A stretch of DNA of 64,000 nt. Origin: Turicimonas muris. Lineage in GTDB: Bacteria > Pseudomonadota > Gammaproteobacteria > Burkholderiales > Burkholderiaceae_F. Location: the NCBI RefSeq assembly GCF_002221595.1, contig NZ_NHMP01000010.1, positions 1-64,000 on the forward strand. Reading direction: 5' to 3'. Under the pieces are notes generated by a model. It had not been told where the DNA came from and did not search any database. It saw only the letters and a program-made list of their open reading frames with translations. Shown here in pieces: positions 39,288-46,108 of the stretch (positions are counted from its first letter, which is position 1; the number at the start of each line of letters is the position of its first letter). Position numbers and translations under genes: made by a program.

Positions 39288-39779
39288 ATGCAAAAAATGG
39301 CAGAAGAACAAGACGATTTAAAAATATCCGAAAACATAAGAGCTGAACTTAGGAGAGGTGCTTCTGATTTTATCGGAGAAGGTCGAGCATATTACGTTTA
39401 CTTTATTTCTAAAGATAAATGCGTCGGTTCGGCAAAGATGACCGCCGAATTTGTCATTCCTGTACAAGTCTCCTCCAGAACCAAAAAAGAAGAAGCCAAC
39501 TACCAAAGAATTCTGGCTGTTATGGAGGAAGATCTTAAATGTCTTGCAGGTCTTCTGGATGAATCGGGTGAAAATCGCGGCGAAATCGAGCAGGACGTTT
39601 CGGATCTCTGGATTATCAAGAAGAGAGGCCGCCCTCTTGTAGCATCTAAGCCTTTAGCAAGGACTACGATTCTTTTAACGGAAGAAGATAAAGAAAAATT
39701 AAAAGAACTTGGTGGTTCGGCGTGGATAAGAGATCAAATTCGCAAGGCTTATACCGAATCAAAAGCATCAGAAGAATAA
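39288..39779 (+). CDS. Hypothetical protein with C-terminal GRP/LTEED DNA-binding-like module
   Basis: A 163-residue soluble protein. The N-terminal half (1-110) is of unknown family with a strand-rich GRAYYVYFISKDKCVGSAKM region. Residues 112-118 contain an AT-hook-like KRGRPL, followed by a helical module (124-153) with LTEEDKEKLKELGGSAWIRDQ. The same module occurs in the UmuD-like protein at 44637. I infer nucleic-acid binding from the basic GRP stretch. It ends 27 bp before the AlaX-like gene. An ATG at 39297 is a second possible start. Confidence 0.65.
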   Translation: MQKMAEEQDDLKISENIRAELRRGASDFIGEGRAYYVYFISKDKCVGSAKMTAEFVIPVQVSSRTKKEEANYQRILAVMEEDLKCLAGLLDESGENRGEIEQDVSDLWIIKKRGRPLVASKPLARTTILLTEEDKEKLKELGGSAWIRDQIRKAYTESKASEE

Positions 39780-39806
39780 CTTACAGGCACAATTGGTCTT
39801 ATAAAA

Positions 39807-40976
39807 ATGGAAGAATTAAACGAGTTGTTTTATCGGGATCCTTACTGCCAAGAATTTGAAGCAGAGGTCCTTTCTTGTACTGTTGGTAAAAAGGGTTTTG
39901 ATGTAGTTTTAAGCGATACGGCTTTTTATCCGGAAGGAGGCGGCCAACCCTCCGATCTGGGAAATTTAGGCGACGCTAAAGTCTTATTTGTAAAAAGACA
40001 AAATGGTCAAGTCGTCCATCAGACGGATAAAGATCTGAAAGTCGGAGAAACGGTCAAGGGAAAAATTGACTGGGCGCGTAGATATGACAACATGCAGAAT
40101 CACTCATGCGAACATATTTTTTCAGGCTTAGTCAATAGAAAATATGGTTTCAACAATGTCGGTTTCCATATGGGAGATGATGTCCTAACCGTTGATTTTG
40201 ACGGTTATCTCACCCCTGAGCAGTTGGCCGAAATGGAAGAATTGACCAATGCGGCTTTCAGAAAAGGACAAAACATTCATATCTTTTTCCCAAGTGAAGA
40301 AGAACTCAAAGCGTTGGATTTCAGAAGTAAGAAAGAACTCAAGGGAAAAGTTCGAATTGTTGAATTCCCGGAGGCTGATATCTGTGCCTGTTGCGGTACT
40401 CACGTAAAAAATACAGCGGAAATTGGGTCTTTTAAAATACTTTCTTCCTTTAAGCATAGAGGAGGGACAAGGGTTGAATTTGCCGCCGGTAAACGCCTGA
40501 TCAACTACATCAATATGCTCTTAAGAGAAAGCGCATCCTGTGTAGAACAGTTGTCAGCTAAACCTCAAGAAATTTCCGGTGCTTTAAAACAGCTTTATTC
40601 AGAAAAGAATCAGTTGGCAGAAAAACTTTCGAAGAAATCGGAAAGGATCATGAATTTGATTTCTGATTCTCTTCCTTCTGAAGGCAAGTTATTGTTCGTC
40701 TCTGAACCGGAATTAACTCCTTTTGAGATAAAGGTCTTTTGCAATCGTTTGGCCGAGAAAAAGAATTTCGAATCCATTCTTGTTCTATCAGAACAAGCAG
40801 AGAAGAAACTCTTTAATTACATACTTTTCTCTAAAGAGCCGAATTTGGCCGCTCTATCGAGAGAACTAAATAAGGAACTGAACGGCCGAGGAGGAGGCAA
40901 GCCTCCTTTTGTCCAAGGTTCTTTTGCTTCTTCCGAAGAGGAAATTAGAAAAGCCGTCGAAGCAAAATTAGGCTAA
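39807..40976 (+). CDS. Alanyl-tRNA editing protein, AlaX-like with DHHA1 domain
   Basis: A 389-residue protein. The N-terminal part has DTAFYPEGGGQPSDLG (alanyl-tRNA synthetase second-additional-like). The editing zinc site is NHSCEHIFSG near 100 plus CACCGTHV near 197, and the C-terminal DHHA1 region has RGGGKPPFVQGS. It resembles AlaRS lacking the catalytic half. It should hydrolyse Ser-tRNA(Ala) or Gly-tRNA(Ala) in trans. The usual HxxxH is present as HSCEH. Confidence 0.9.
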   Translation: MEELNELFYRDPYCQEFEAEVLSCTVGKKGFDVVLSDTAFYPEGGGQPSDLGNLGDAKVLFVKRQNGQVVHQTDKDLKVGETVKGKIDWARRYDNMQNHSCEHIFSGLVNRKYGFNNVGFHMGDDVLTVDFDGYLTPEQLAEMEELTNAAFRKGQNIHIFFPSEEELKALDFRSKKELKGKVRIVEFPEADICACCGTHVKNTAEIGSFKILSSFKHRGGTRVEFAAGKRLINYINMLLRESASCVEQLSAKPQEISGALKQLYSEKNQLAEKLSKKSERIMNLISDSLPSEGKLLFVSEPELTPFEIKVFCNRLAEKKNFESILVLSEQAEKKLFNYILFSKEPNLAALSRELNKELNGRGGGKPPFVQGSFASSEEEIRKAVEAKLG

Positions 40977-40994
40977 GTTCACTCGCAAAAAAAG

Positions 40995-41026
40995 AAAAAG
41001 CACTGCCGGAATTCGCAGTGCTTTTT
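40995..41026. terminator. Bidirectional terminator
   Basis: AAAAAGCACTGC/GCAGTGCTTTTT is a perfect 12-bp stem with an 8-nt loop between the convergent AlaX-like gene and the zinc ATPase. Confidence 0.9.
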
Positions 41027-41041
41027 CAGTTTGAAAGCGGA

Positions 41042-43873
41042 TTATTTCGACGGCTTCCAAGTTAAAAGCCTTAAACCATTTGCAACAACAATCAAGCAGG
41101 TGCCTGTGTCTGCAAATACCGCCATCCACATTGTGGCCATTCCTAAGAAGGTCAGAGCAAAGAAAATGGCTTTAATGGATAAAGCAATAATGATGTTCTG
41201 ACAAAGAATCTTGAAAGTTTCCTTAGACAGTTCTATAAATGCGGGAAGCTTTCTCAAATCATCGTCCATTAACGCGACATCGGCAGTTTCAATTGCGGTA
41301 TCTGTTCCTGCGGCACCCATGGCAAAGCCAATATCGGCTCGAGCAAGAGCAGGGGCGTCGTTAATGCCGTCACCGACCATACCAGTGACATCTTTCTTCG
41401 CATAGCGATCAACAAAATGCTGTTTTTCTTCAGGAAGAAGATTTCCCTTAGCCATTTGAACGCCAACTTCTTTACCGATTCTTTCAGCGGTTTTAGAGTT
41501 GTCTCCGCTTAAAAGGACGGTCTTTAAACCCAAAGAATTAAGCTTTTCGATAGCTTCTTTAGAGTGAGACTTAATGGAGTCAGCTACTCCGAAACAAGCC
41601 AGCACCTTCTTGGAACTGGCTAGAACCAACGGAGAGCAACCTTTTTCGGCCAAAGCAGAGAATTTATCTCGGATGGTTTGGCTCTGGAGCAGATAGCGAT
41701 CTAAACCTTTTAAATTGCCCAAATAATATTCCGTACCTTCAATTGTTCCTACTACGCCTTGGCCCGGGAGGGCGGTAAAGTCATTAACCTCGGCAAGCTT
41801 AGAACCTTGAAGTCCGTGAGCTGCGGCATGTTCGGAGACTGCTTTGCTTACCGGGTGAGAATTCCGGTCGGCCAAAGCGGCAGCCAGAGTTAATACGGTG
41901 TTCGGATCTACGTCAGTTAACATCTCAACTTCTTGAACCTGAGGCTTGCCTTCAGTAATAGTGCCGGTCTTGTCGAAAGCAATAAGCTGAAGTTTTCTCC
42001 CTTTTTCCAAGTAGATTCCGCCTTTAACTAATATTCCGCGTTTTGCTGCGTTAGCCAAGCCGGTGACTATAGTTACAGGAGTAGAAATTACCAAGGCACA
42101 GGGACACGCAATAACCAACAAAGTAAGGGCCTTGTAGATCCAGCCGTACCAATCTCCGTCGAGTGCGAGGGGAGGAATAACGGCCGTGGCTAAAGCAATT
42201 AAGAAAACCAGAGGTGTATAGACCTTAGCGAAACTGTCAACAAATCTCTGAGTAGGTGCACGAGAACTTTGAGCCGATTCAATGGCGCTGATAATTCTCG
42301 CTGGCATTGAGTTCTGAGCTGTTGAGGTTGCTTCGTAAATAAGCTCTGAATTTTCATTCAAAGAGCCCGCAAAAACAGCATCACCGGGTTTCTTGTCTAC
42401 CGGAAGACTTTCTCCGGTAATTGCACTTTGATTCAACGAAGAGTTTCCTGAGATGACTTTGCCGTCAACCGCTAGTCTTTCGCCGGGCTCTACACGAACG
42501 GTGTCGCCGACGCGGACATCATCGGCTTCAATCTCCTCCCATTTACCGTCTTTTTGTACCGTAGCTTTTTGGGGTGTCATGGAAAGAAGAGAGCGGATCG
42601 CGCCGCGTGCTTTATCCAAAGAAAGCTGCTCAATAGCCTCGGAAATTTCAAAAAGAACCATGACCATAGCAGCTTCTGCCCAGGAACCGATTAATACGGC
42701 ACCGGTCACGGCTACGGCCATTAGGGCATTCATGTTAAAGTTGAGGTTCTTAATGGCAATAAAGCCTTTTTTATAAGTCCCTACGCCAACAAAGAGGATG
42801 GCTGCCACGGCCAATGCTATTGAAACGTATTCATTTAAATTCAACAGCTCGCATGCTTCCGAACCAAGTGCAAGAATTAAGCAGAAAATATATCTCCACC
42901 AATTGATTTTGGTCGGTTTAAATTCCGAGAGACTGGTCTTCTGACCCTCAATCACTTCAGGATCGTATTCGAGAGATTTAATTGCAGCTAAGATAACCGG
43001 CAGTTGTCCCGGCAGATAAGACACAGTAAGAATTCGGTTCATCAAGTTAAATTGGAGTCCGCTAACACCTTCGATGCCGTTCAGTTTCTTGCGGATGAGA
43101 CCTTCTTCGGTCGGGCAATCCATTTGAGGGATTCTGATCTGGGAAGTTTGCTTTTTGTTATCGACAACACGCTTGAGTTTCAGATTGTTTTTTGAGAAGG
43201 CTTCTTCAATCGCCGGGAGGGACTCCGGAGTATGAATAATGCGCAGCCCTTCCGGGGTTAGATTAACATCATGAACGCCGACTAATGAACCGAGAGTTGC
43301 AAAAAGCAGTTTATATTGAGTGGGCTTAACCTCTGAGACATTCCAGTCCGTATCCATGCTGTTTTCGACGTGGGAATGGTCGTGGCCGCAGCAACAATGC
43401 TTATCATGAGAATGAACGTGTTCTGCACAGCAAGCGTGACTCTCATGATGCTCATGTTTTTCTTCATGATGATGTTCGCATCCGCATCCTGCATGTTCAT
43501 GTGAATGACACTCATGATGTTCATGATGGTTATGAGCTGAGCAGCACTCTTGATGTTCGTGCGAATGAGACTCGCAGCAATGAGTGCCATGCTCGTGAGA
43601 ACAGCATTCGGTTTCGGATTTGGAAGAGCTGCTTGTTTCTGAGGTTTCGTGATGATGACCGCAGCAGCGATGTTCTTGAGAATGGGCGTGAACAGAATTT
43701 GCTTTTAAGGCATCTTCCAAGCAACGACAAGGCTGTCCGGGATACTTTCCGCAGTTGCACATTTTAGTTTCAGAGTTCCCTTTGATATTCTCGGGAGAGT
43801 CGTGCGAAACAGCTTTTTGTGTCTGTGGCTGAAGACTTCCGTTTTCGGGCGCTTGTTTTATATCATCCTTCAT
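41042..43873 (-). CDS. zntA: Zn/Cd/Pb-exporting P1B-type ATPase with large His/Cys-rich head
   Basis: A 943-residue P-type ATPase. Residues 61-170 contain 34 His and 16 Cys, after a CNCGKYPGQPCRC cluster at 39-51. An HMA-like domain (IPQMDCPTEEGLI) follows near 250. The membrane part has the CPC metal site (ACPCALVISTP), phosphorylation site DKTGTITEGKP, HP motif (NSHPVSKA) and GDGINDAPALARADIGFAMG. The CPC type and MDCPTEE place it among zinc/cadmium/lead exporters (CadA/ZntA). It is about 200 residues longer than E. coli ZntA because of the head. It is divergent from a MerR regulator. Confidence 0.95.
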   Translation of the reverse strand: MKDDIKQAPENGSLQPQTQKAVSHDSPENIKGNSETKMCNCGKYPGQPCRCLEDALKANSVHAHSQEHRCCGHHHETSETSSSSKSETECCSHEHGTHCCESHSHEHQECCSAHNHHEHHECHSHEHAGCGCEHHHEEKHEHHESHACCAEHVHSHDKHCCCGHDHSHVENSMDTDWNVSEVKPTQYKLLFATLGSLVGVHDVNLTPEGLRIIHTPESLPAIEEAFSKNNLKLKRVVDNKKQTSQIRIPQMDCPTEEGLIRKKLNGIEGVSGLQFNLMNRILTVSYLPGQLPVILAAIKSLEYDPEVIEGQKTSLSEFKPTKINWWRYIFCLILALGSEACELLNLNEYVSIALAVAAILFVGVGTYKKGFIAIKNLNFNMNALMAVAVTGAVLIGSWAEAAMVMVLFEISEAIEQLSLDKARGAIRSLLSMTPQKATVQKDGKWEEIEADDVRVGDTVRVEPGERLAVDGKVISGNSSLNQSAITGESLPVDKKPGDAVFAGSLNENSELIYEATSTAQNSMPARIISAIESAQSSRAPTQRFVDSFAKVYTPLVFLIALATAVIPPLALDGDWYGWIYKALTLLVIACPCALVISTPVTIVTGLANAAKRGILVKGGIYLEKGRKLQLIAFDKTGTITEGKPQVQEVEMLTDVDPNTVLTLAAALADRNSHPVSKAVSEHAAAHGLQGSKLAEVNDFTALPGQGVVGTIEGTEYYLGNLKGLDRYLLQSQTIRDKFSALAEKGCSPLVLASSKKVLACFGVADSIKSHSKEAIEKLNSLGLKTVLLSGDNSKTAERIGKEVGVQMAKGNLLPEEKQHFVDRYAKKDVTGMVGDGINDAPALARADIGFAMGAAGTDTAIETADVALMDDDLRKLPAFIELSKETFKILCQNIIIALSIKAIFFALTFLGMATMWMAVFADTGTCLIVVANGLRLLTWKPSK

Positions 43874-43904
43874 CGTTATTTCCCAATATGTTGTTTATGG
43901 GATA

Positions 43905-43935
43905 ATTTAAAATCCTATAGTTACTTTAGAGTCAA
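43905..43935 (-). promoter_or_regulatory. MerR-type promoter/operator of zntA
   Basis: On the minus strand TTGACT (43935-43930) and TTAAAT (43910-43905) are separated by 19 bp, the stretched spacer of MerR-controlled promoters. The spacer overlaps an imperfect inverted repeat ATCCTATAGT-T-ACTTTAGAGT (43912-43932; 7 of 10 paired), resembling ZntR/CadR operators. It lies in the 83-bp gap shared with the divergent regulator gene. Confidence 0.75.
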
Positions 43936-43956
43936 GTTAATTTAGGGTAATTTCTG

Positions 43957-44355
43957 ATGAAGATAGGTGAATTAGCAAAAATAACAGGTTGTCAGGTTGG
44001 GACCATTCGTTTTTACGAGACCTCCGGCCTTCTTCCAGCTGCGCCAAGAACACAAGGAAACTACAGGGTTTACGGAGAAGAACACAAAAAAGCGCTGCAG
44101 TTTATCCTTCATTGCCGTGCGCTGGATTTATCGATTGATGAAGTAAAAGAATTAATCAATCTCAAGAGCGCTCAGGCTAGTGACGCCCGTAAGGCTCATT
44201 CAATCATCGAAAATCATATTCTCGAAATTAATAAAAAGATTACTCAGCTTGAATCATTAAAGTCTGAGCTAGAATTTTTAGCCCATAAATGCGGACACGA
44301 TCACCGAGAAGAGAAGGGCGAAACTTGCTGTCTTATTGAAGCGTTACACCAATAA
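43957..44355 (+). CDS. cadR: MerR family metal-responsive regulator (CadR/ZntR/PbrR type)
   Basis: A 132-residue MerR regulator: HTH at 1-70 (MKIGELAKITGCQVGTIRFYETSG), a dimerisation helix, and a C-terminal metal region with a CGHDH...CC pattern (residues about 112-128), plus Cys in HCRALDLSI near 75. Cysteines at these places mark the cadmium/lead/zinc branch. It is divergent from the P-type ATPase and should twist the 19-bp-spaced promoter when metal is bound. The tail repeats the His/Cys style of the ATPase head. Confidence 0.93.
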   Translation: MKIGELAKITGCQVGTIRFYETSGLLPAAPRTQGNYRVYGEEHKKALQFILHCRALDLSIDEVKELINLKSAQASDARKAHSIIENHILEINKKITQLESLKSELEFLAHKCGHDHREEKGETCCLIEALHQ

Positions 44356-44636
44356 AAAAGCGGGAGCTTCCGAGGGAACACGTACTCAAAAAGGCGAAAA
44401 AAGAGGATTCGAGCAAAGAGTAATTCCGGAGTTTTGATTATTTAAACTTATAATTTCTTTTCATTACATGAAAATGTTTTTCGCAAAATGATTATGATGT
44501 AAGAATTATTGTAGTTGCTTCATATTTTTGCGTTTTTTCAGTATCTTTATGCCTTATAAATTACCTATAATTAGGTAAATTACAAAGTTATAGAAAAAGA
44601 AAAATATATCTTTAAATAAAACAAAACAAGGGAAAA

Positions 44637-45194
44637 ATGACGAATTCTAGTCATAAGCGAGCTGCAAAATCCGGATGGGGAGGAAAAAGAGCCGGAGCAG
44701 GACGAAAACCAGGCCCCGACGCTTCCGTCAGTAAGGTCACAACTGTAGTTCTTACCGAAGATCTCATTGCAAAACTCCGTGAGCTCGGAGGTTCGAAATG
44801 GGTTCGTGAGCAAATACAGAAGAGCGGAACTGAAAAAATTTCCAATCCAGATTCTCAGCCGTCTTTTTCAGAAAATACCTCATTGGATTTAAATAGATTA
44901 TTAATCCATGATCCTCTCTCTTCTTTAATTTGTTCCGCACCGGACGATAGTGCTTTTTCTTCCGGCATCAAGCACGGGGACATGTTGATAGTTAACTCAA
45001 AAGTTCCTCCGAAAGAAAGTAATGTTGTTCTTGTTCGACACAATTCTTCTTACTCTTTAAGAAAATTTAGAATGGAAGGTAATGCAGTCACTCTCTCTAT
45101 GGATACTCCGACTGGAGAAGTCGTATACTCCTTAGCCGACAGTGAATGCTGCATTTTGGGTGTAATCCAATACGTTATCAAAAGTTTGCCCTAG
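44637..45194 (+). CDS. UmuD/LexA-like S24 domain protein with basic GRKPG N-terminus
   Basis: A 185-residue protein. Residues 11-28 are GWGGKRAGAGRKPG-rich, followed by a helical module (34-62: LTEDLIAKLRELGGSKW) shared with the protein at 39288. Residues 100-185 resemble UmuD: APDDSAFSSGIKHGDMLIVNS aligns with the GDSM serine block (Ser105), and the end LGVIQYVIKSLP matches the UmuD tail. The lysine of the Ser-Lys dyad appears as Arg142, with Lys143 next to it. Cleavage activity is doubtful. No umuC is adjacent. SOS-type or phage-repressor origins are both possible. Confidence 0.7.
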   Translation: MTNSSHKRAAKSGWGGKRAGAGRKPGPDASVSKVTTVVLTEDLIAKLRELGGSKWVREQIQKSGTEKISNPDSQPSFSENTSLDLNRLLIHDPLSSLICSAPDDSAFSSGIKHGDMLIVNSKVPPKESNVVLVRHNSSYSLRKFRMEGNAVTLSMDTPTGEVVYSLADSECCILGVIQYVIKSLP

Positions 45195-45292: not shown

Positions 45293-46108
45293 TTGCAGGA
45301 AGAAATTTTTTCTTTGCCGCCGGTCCAGTCTGAGATTGAGGTAATCAAACTTCCGTCTTGGAAGAAAAAGTCGGATTTTGTTGCGGAAGAAGTTCCTGTC
45401 GCATTGGTTTATAACGGCCTTTCTCATGTTGTAATGATGTGCTCGCCGCAGCATCTGAAAGAGTTTGCTGTTGGTTTCTCTATTTCTGAAGGAATCGTTC
45501 CTGATTATTCCCATATCTTCGATATAGAGATTAAACCGGGCTGTCACAATGGTCTTGTTGTAGAAATGGAGATATCTCCTCGCTGTTTCTGGAATCTCAA
45601 AGATCAAAGAAGGAGCATGGCAGGCCGCACCGGCTGCGGAATCTGTGGTACGGAAAATTTAGATAAGGTCTATAAAGAAGTTTCTCGTCTTCCTAACACC
45701 TATACTTTTGATTTGAAGCATTATCATTTCGGCCTCCAGAAAATCAGAGAGGCTCAGCAAATCGGAGCCGCGACCGGAAGTATGCATGCTGTTGCGGCTT
45801 TAGACAGTGAAGGCAATTTTTTAGGAGGCATTGAGGATATCGGCCGACACGTAGCTCTCGATAAAGTCTTGGGCTTAAAAGCGATAAATAATTGGAAGAA
45901 GGAAGTCTTATTTTTAAGTTCTCGGGCCTCTTTCGAAATGGTTCAGAAAGCTGCAGTTTCCGGCATTGAAATCGTCTTTGCTATTTCTGCTCCGACCAAT
46001 ACTGCTATTGAACTGGCGAGAAAGGCAAATATAACGTTAGCCGCATTTTGCAGAGAAAACTCAGCTAACGTTTACACAGCTCCTGAGAGATTCCTCGGAT
46101 CTTTCTGA
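45293..46108 (+). CDS. fdhD: Formate dehydrogenase accessory sulfurtransferase FdhD
   Basis: A 271-residue FdhD. The sulfur-carrying cysteine loop is RTGCGICGTENL near 115-125; other marks are EEVPVALVYNG, GFSISEGI, GSMHAVAAL and EDIGRHVALDKVLG. It passes sulfur from IscS to the molybdenum/bis-MGD cofactor of formate dehydrogenase. It starts at TTG with a strong SD (AGGAGGGAG). It is 11 kb from the formate dehydrogenase operon in the same window, which it should serve. Confidence 0.95.
   Translation: MQEEIFSLPPVQSEIEVIKLPSWKKKSDFVAEEVPVALVYNGLSHVVMMCSPQHLKEFAVGFSISEGIVPDYSHIFDIEIKPGCHNGLVVEMEISPRCFWNLKDQRRSMAGRTGCGICGTENLDKVYKEVSRLPNTYTFDLKHYHFGLQKIREAQQIGAATGSMHAVAALDSEGNFLGGIEDIGRHVALDKVLGLKAINNWKKEVLFLSSRASFEMVQKAAVSGIEIVFAISAPTNTAIELARKANITLAAFCRENSANVYTAPERFLGSF

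Follow-up and report, generated by a model that had tools for sequence, protein, structure and literature searches.

A homologous, probably DNA-binding module in a decayed UmuD paralogue and a second predicted regulator of Turicimonas muris

We analyzed a window of 64,000 nt (contig NZ_NHMP01000010.1, positions 1 to 64,000, forward strand) from the Turicimonas muris assembly GCF_002221595.1, a genome of 2,887,709 bases in 20 contigs (2.89 Mb), and studied two of its open reading frames: P1 (39288–39779, + strand, 163 amino acids) and P2 (44637–45194, + strand, 185 amino acids). Both proteins contain a homologous module roughly 30 residues long. P2 is a decayed orphan paralogue of UmuD whose predicted DNA-binding end is under strong constraint. 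The reading that we consider likely is that the module is a homologous ribbon-helix-helix (RHH) DNA-binding domain, that P2 is a constitutive transcription regulator derived from UmuD, and that P1 is a probable second regulator. Below, genomes, loci and genera are referred to by handles (G, L and g) where they need to be told apart.

Comparison of P1 with P2 by BLASTP returned a single ungapped match, between residues 126–157 of P1 (TTILLTEEDKEKLKELGGSAWIRDQIRKAYTE; 39663–39758, + strand) and 35–66 of P2, with 19 of 32 residues identical, 27 of 32 positive and an E value of 1e-10 for this single comparison; no similarity was reported outside the module. When the whole window genome was searched with P1 at E ≤ 1, the only hit besides P1 itself fell on the P2 module (E 3.8e-6). 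A profile built from 18 modules and run against 1111 frames of the window likewise found only P1 and P2 convincing (E 2.6e-18 and 1.3e-17, scores inflated by the presence of both window copies in the profile); the next best frame reached 0.74, and no third copy was found. The preliminary description of this DNA had proposed that both frames carry a common module, placed after a basic stretch, C-terminal in P1 and N-terminal in P2, and these results bear it out. The frames and the domain order are as it had them, and so are the basic stretches, KKRGRP at residues 111–116 of P1 (39618–39635, + strand; alignment) and GWGGKRAGAGRKPGP at residues 13–27 of P2 (44673–44717, + strand), the latter conserved within the P2 group and resembling the arm of most other UmuD N-termini in the clade. 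A chance or low-complexity match can practically be dismissed. Unrelated proteins of phage contigs do contain the glycine/arginine-rich arm (GGxRPGAGR) without the module, and the arm by itself is no evidence of kinship, but the E value of 1e-10 rests on the non-repetitive helices, that of 3.8e-6 holds genome-wide, and both orthologue groups conserve the module.

By its sequence pattern, the module looks like a compact RHH DNA-binding domain. On this reading, it comprises a glycine/arginine-rich arm, a strand (TT[VI]xLT), helix A, a tight turn (LGGS) and helix B with W[IV]R.QI. In P2, it occupies residues 34–66 (44736–44834, + strand; BLASTP, AlphaFold2 and RHH profile), with a proposed strand at 34–40 and helices at 41–49 and 53–65, both of which are predicted in the AlphaFold2 monomer. 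Alignment of a profile of 27 modules with 26 RHH_1 sequences from relatives (hhalign) gave a probability of 84 (P 7e-6), with strand and helix A in register, a score reached by none of 200 column-shuffled RHH profiles. Thirteen rows from outside the set of P2, P1 and close UmuDs, namely 10 of phage, plasmid or stand-alone type and 3 UmuDs of other genera, match RHH_1 by themselves at 83%; the other 14 rows match it weakly (41.5%, P 2.7e-4), and comparison of one set with the other gives 98.4%. From these alignments we infer an RHH fold, and with it DNA binding, dimerization and regulation. The preliminary description had named RHH and helix-turn-helix as the folds to be distinguished; the agreement of strand and helix A speaks for the former, although the match over the entire module is weak.

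Several results weigh against the RHH assignment and the regulatory role attached to it. The global hhalign comparison over the whole module gave a probability of only 13 (P 5e-4) and implies a helix A that falls short of the standard RHH length by about one turn; Pfam searches with 16 module sequences yielded nothing better than E 0.02 and no RHH family; AlphaFold2 monomer models do not assign the strand; and confidence in the model of the P1 module is low (pLDDT block means 43–66). UmuDAb, the Acinetobacter UmuD considered below, has an N-terminus described as helix-turn-helix-like in two papers (PMC11332147, PMC4807011). On the DNA side, the best palindrome upstream of P2 in the window is no better than shuffled sequence (22 of 60 shuffles reach it), no clear upstream element is common to the P2 orthologues except between G006 and G032, and a 13-bp element found upstream of P1 orthologues (ATATGGACAATAT) does not occur in front of P1 in the window itself. 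A search of the PDB with the module profile gave no credible match (one at E 0.13). An alternative is that the shared stretch is homologous without being an RHH domain, for example a two-helix protein–protein docking motif, with the arm binding nucleic acid non-specifically. Confinement of the significant RHH match to strand and helix A, a fold that is predicted only and modelled with low confidence in P1, and the failure to find an operator common to P1 and P2 would all fit this proposal. We nonetheless regard it as unlikely, given that the RHH score was unreached in 200 decoys and recurs with the 13 outside rows, and that UmuDAb, the protein with the related terminus, is a DNA-binding repressor (PMC11332147). 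On the RHH reading, the module would bind DNA as an RHH dimer, a step well supported by homology.

Behind its arm and module, P2 carries an S24 domain like that of UmuD (residues 81–184; 44877–45188, + strand), placed by alignment and by its match to UmuD′ in the PDB, and lacking a cleavage site. This domain, which the preliminary description had already recognized as UmuD-like, matches Pfam S24 at E 2.8e-6 (above cut-off) and PDB UmuD′ chains at 1.1e-9 in the best case, and its fold matches that of UmuD′ with a TM-score of 0.82 by target length. Alignment with canonical UmuDs shows that the serine of the catalytic Ser-Lys dyad is kept (Ser105) and that the position of the catalytic lysine is taken by Arg142. 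Across the P2 group, made up of the window protein and orthologues in G001, G005, G006, G021 and G032, the lysine is lost in six of six members, as is the cleavage site (CG/AG-FPSPA), and the serine in four of six: the window P2 retains it, and four of the five orthologues have it replaced. Because it has neither cleavage site nor catalytic lysine, P2 should not work as a RecA switch. Its S24 fold probably serves only dimerization. No umuC lies beside P2.

Conservation within P2 is concentrated at the other end of the protein. Over the six orthologues, which belong to three genera, mean pairwise identity is 71% in the module (range 62–86) versus 34% in the S24 domain (20–60), and 66% versus 34% when slightly different columns are used. 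Selection in P2 therefore rests on the module. Four canonical UmuDs of genera g1 and g6 show the reverse order, with 42% in the module and 59% in the S24 domain. It is very improbable that P1 and P2 are decaying remnants devoid of function: the loss of catalytic residues from P2 and S24 identities as low as 20% between some orthologues would suit such a history, but the frames are open, the neighborhood is conserved, and the module is held at 62–86% across the six orthologues. Another proposal, which we judge improbable, casts P2 as a pol V accessory, a permanently UmuD′-like subunit or a decoy partner of UmuD, instead of a gene regulator. Such a role would make sense of the retained UmuD′ fold and of the three genomes (G001, G006 and G032) that hold P2 together with a canonical umuD beside umuC, and the window genome does encode a second IMS-domain protein (2.8e-26). 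Yet P2 is least conserved in its S24 domain, the window genome has P2 without any other UmuD match, and relatives have stronger UmuC-type matches (7e-30 to 2e-37) than the second IMS match of this genome. On our reading, P2 would be a version that self-cleavage cannot switch off. G032 (L044, 2865–3401) and G006 (L045, 2487–3008) each encode one more solo UmuD-like protein that has the module and, instead of the catalytic lysine, an arginine; no umuC was seen in the surrounding 6 kb, and the two form a second group of decayed paralogues.

To judge from the sequences, UmuD of this clade regularly carries the module at its N-terminus. Among named genomes, a scan returned five loci, in Parasutterella excrementihominis, P. 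muris, a Parasutterella metagenome-assembled genome (MAG), a Turicimonas MAG and a Burkholderiales MAG. NCBI assigns Parasutterella and Turicimonas to the Sutterellaceae, and G001 is of the same genus as the window genome. We read 27 canonical UmuDs, one per genome (those of G025, G071, G075, G082 and the contig-cut G005 were left unread; G019 and G068 are identical). All 27 contain the module by a loose letter pattern, 20 have a GG.R..[AG]GR arm, and 26 each have a cleavage-like site and the lysine; umuC was seen at 14 or more of the 27 loci, the pattern missing some. Since the module is the usual UmuD N-terminus in the clade, the copy in P2 is most simply an inherited part of UmuD, and a separate fusion event is required by P1 only.

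Among the 61 genomes of the family, window genome included, the LexA DNA-binding domain (PF01726) exceeds the cut-off in 27; four more (G021, G032, G035 and G083), with weak matches below it, were counted as LexA-less. A UmuD of the module kind is present at E 1e-36 or better in 33 genomes, the window genome contributing P2 itself. LexA alone was found in 22 genomes, UmuD of this kind alone in 28, both in 5 (all genus g2) and neither in 6, several of them incomplete; because the genera are related, this division is no statistical test and may reflect one or two events. The weaker S24 matches in the 22 LexA-only genomes (E 1e-15 to 1e-19) fall at LexA. Absence of LexA is not special to the clade, since 15 of 41 genomes of the order also lack a match over the cut-off; in two of these, G050 and G051, a umuC-like gene adjoins a umuD that has an arm and an RHH-like strand. 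LexA is reported to be missing from a number of lineages (PMC13148647). In the window genome itself, no PF01726 match was found at E 0.01, and hence none in P1 or P2, nor any UmuD match besides P2; RecA is present, and the stronger of its two IMS-domain matches (1.6e-50) resembles the strongest of relatives. In G021, a UmuD with the module, serine and lysine (L042 / L134) has no umuC seen beside it, and the genome has a single IMS-domain match, as in the case of UmuDAb.

P1 is probably a second regulator with the same predicted DNA-binding end as P2. An N-terminal domain of strands and one long helix (about residues 9–112; 39312–39623, + strand; AlphaFold2) that belongs to no known family is followed by the basic arm and the C-terminal module. 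Of the 61 genomes searched, the window's among them, G001, G006 and G032 have an orthologue. Across the four proteins, KRGRP of the arm is invariant, and mean pairwise identity is 75% in the module versus 49% in the N-terminal domain, making the module the most conserved part. No family was matched by P1 at E 1 in Pfam, NCBIfam or PHROG, with only weak, unlikely Pfam matches for the three orthologues, and by sequence the PDB offered no credible match (best E 0.35). The N-terminal domain is modelled well (pLDDT block means 85–96 over residues 11–110), and no convincing relatives of its fold emerged: the best PDB structure reached Z 4.2, the best Foldseek hit E 0.017 and the best BFVD hit E 0.008 with low TM-scores. 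We rejected MHC class I-like sheets and other candidates as kin, for at Z ≤ 4.2 and Foldseek E ≥ 0.017 they point to a common arrangement and not to kinship. A profile of the domain matched 2 of 399 genomes of the order, the window genome and G001 (G006 and G032 lay outside that draw), and plasmids, phages and viral contigs contained no match to P1. The 13-bp element ATATGGACAATAT, which has short inverted arms, lies upstream of P1 in G001, G006 and G032 (L023 1807, L024 1993 and L025 1998, - strand) and so spans two genera; with up to one mismatch it was not found elsewhere in 772 kb of overlapping loci, as opposed to whole genomes. P1 perhaps regulates its own operon.

Directly 3′ of P1 is a gene for an AlaX-like alanyl-tRNA editing protein (39807–40976, + strand; NCBIfam AlaXM 9.8e-49, below its cut-off), an arrangement shared with G001, where the gene was recognized from its N-terminal sequence. 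It is followed by a metal-transporting P-type ATPase with a His/Cys-rich N-terminus (41042–43873, - strand; Pfam). Upstream of P2 lies a MerR-family regulator resembling CadR and PbrR (43957–44355, + strand; over cut-off in Pfam; NCBIfam CadR-PbrR 6.9e-35, below its cut-off), and downstream lies FdhD (45293–46108, + strand; Pfam 2.7e-67). At the five orthologous P2 loci, where neighbors were recognized by N-terminal sequence (Pfam was run on the window's neighbors only), an FdhD-like gene follows P2, and a MerR-like gene and a metal ATPase are nearby wherever the contig extends; G006, G021 and G032 additionally have an exonuclease-like gene between MerR and P2, which the window is without. The two Parasutterella genomes with P1 and P2 (L036 and L037) have them 4–5 kb from each other; in G001 they are on separate contigs. 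In the window's ATPase, the His/Cys-rich stretch is long and precedes the HMA domain.

The preliminary description had called the module mobile. A common module of some 30 residues that has a basic arm, probably binds DNA and has several domain partners is supported; nothing shows recent movement within the window. P2 orthologues adjoin the same genes in five other genomes, and P1 has orthologues in three others. The domain partners that it had suggested looking for turned out to be UmuD, the P1 N-terminal domain, none at all, or apparently a second module. The module stands alone in phage or phage-like sequences, as 58 amino acids in L063 (identical in viral contig L087), 66 in L085 and 45 in Pseudomonas phage Orisa03. 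It is apparently doubled in hypothetical plasmid proteins of Stutzerimonas, Pseudomonas mendocina and P. aeruginosa (P0001–P0003; L101–L103), in which the tandem sits behind another N-terminal stretch and the second copy scores 2e-7 to 3e-9 against the profile, the first being weak in two and undetected in the third. Doubled modules are what an RHH dimer in one chain would look like, and may thus lend indirect support to that fold. The sequence of the P2 module had no match in plasmids and phages at E 0.1, and the phage-type module of L063 retrieved 7 phage and 12 plasmid records, all weakly (best E 7e-3). By a search that scored up to 17 candidates per genome, matches to arm plus module are rare in the order: at least 20 of 399 genomes have one at E 0.01, and in several of these it covers the arm alone. 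In G151, the module precedes a different, unassigned C-terminal domain (L065, 1102–1662).

Acinetobacter UmuDAb offers a precedent for a UmuD acting on promoters. This UmuD cleaves itself and, with LexA absent, acts as the repressor of damage genes; its operator consists of TTGA/TCAA arms around a GTnAC core (PMC4807011, PMC11332147). We found TTGA-N14-16-TCAA starting at -39 to -46 of the canonical umuD in 6 of 27 genomes (G001, G006, G021, G032, G033 and G084), corresponding at that distance to 1/1 in g1, 3/3 in g6 and 2/7 in g9, versus 0/7 in g16, 0/4 in g11 and 0/5 in g2. Background occurrence limits the operator argument: 14 of the 20 sites in these 96 kb lie elsewhere, other loci have 16 sites in 168 kb, and the palindrome at the site, reached by 0 of 60 shuffles in G001 and G006, is reached by 5 to 26 of 60 in the other four. 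No such site was seen at RecA-family genes in 11 loci, where starts were taken as the first Met (too far upstream in G002 by appearance) and the paralogue L172 was included. TTGA...TCAA is also absent within 150 bp upstream of P2 in six genomes and of P1 in four. Between the divergent umuC and umuD of G027 (L156), a perfect 13-bp inverted repeat, TTGCATGCAAAAT...ATTTTGCATGCAA, lies 46–89 bp upstream of umuD; it is an operator candidate unlike TTGA...TCAA, and a similar imperfect repeat occurs in G036.

By analogy, canonical UmuD with the RHH module would, in some of these genera, repress its own operon at the least and do so in a switchable manner, with P1 as a second protein bearing the same reading head. 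A more far-reaching proposal, which we offer tentatively and hold to be rather doubtful as a whole, is that RHH-bearing UmuD took over the job of LexA in LexA-less Sutterellaceae through a similar TTGA...TCAA operator, as UmuDAb did, and that the N-terminus of UmuDAb is itself RHH and not helix-turn-helix. P2 and P1 would then be derivatives that escape cleavage and that share sites with the switchable UmuD, compete with it for them or form mixed dimers with it. The window bacterium, for which the searches returned no LexA and no canonical UmuD, would be left with unswitchable forms only.

A UmuD with a DNA-binding end is already known from Acinetobacter. Literature searches turned up no account of a compact RHH form bearing LGGxxWxR or of its occurrence in all 27 UmuDs that we read, and none of the decayed orphan P2 or the P1 fusion; no paper on UmuDAb with ribbon-helix-helix, and for UmuD only ones that look unrelated by title and abstract; and nothing relevant in titles and abstracts on LexA in Sutterellaceae or UmuD in Parasutterella, where coverage was partial and subscription journals were mostly missing. 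Control of damage-induced mutagenesis is often an open matter in LexA-less lineages, the UmuD-based case that we found described being that of Acinetobacter. A gut clade with members in which LexA is undetectable, UmuDs with a probable DNA-binding domain and several umuD promoters with Acinetobacter-like operator arms makes the question directly testable. With the module as a signature, such regulators can be searched for; it also points to a fold for the N-terminus of UmuDAb and may help to replace a missing master switch of the bacterial damage response; in P2, a self-cleaving damage sensor appears to have become a fixed DNA-binding protein.

Four known systems frame these proteins. With RHH_1 (PF01402), the module shares strand and helix A in register, differing in its shorter helix A and in the absence of RHH_1 from the Pfam matches of the 16 module sequences. 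PHROG 35980, a phage protein family of unknown function, is matched by 7 of those 16 (best E 3e-7), and the likeness lies in a module-like C-terminal stretch, positions 141–191 of 198 of the profile in the match shown. Canonical Sutterellaceae UmuD (for example L043) has the same kind of arm and module and belongs to the same S24 family as P2, and nearly always has the cleavage site and the lysine, with umuC seen at 14 or more of the 27 loci; P2 possesses none of these. The fourth is UmuDAb. By length and layout, a 203-amino-acid UmuD in L174 and the divergent frame of 78 amino acids next to it fit UmuDAb and ddrR, the identification being our own; the N-terminus of this UmuD has an arm, GGARENAGRK, and a strand-helix, EPTKVIRVPESQVNFIKNW, with TTGAAAATGTAACTTTTTCAA upstream of the gene. 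This Acinetobacter gene has TTGA-N13-TCAA upstream, versus TTGA-N14-16-TCAA at the six canonical umuD genes. UmuDAb differs from P2, which lacks cleavage site and catalytic lysine and would not be expected to undergo RecA-stimulated self-cleavage, from P1, which has no S24 domain, and from the module in the second helix, where the module has LGGxxWxR and UmuDAb does not. Without the arm, nine UmuDAb-type N-termini match RHH_1 at 78.7% and the module at 46% (0 of 100 decoys each); with it, seven match the Sutterellaceae UmuD/P2 set at 96.9% by hhalign, a comparison made without decoys and including the repetitive arm. Common to UmuDAb and P2 are the S24/UmuD domain behind a GGARxxAGR arm and strand-helix N-terminus, in bacteria in which LexA is missing.

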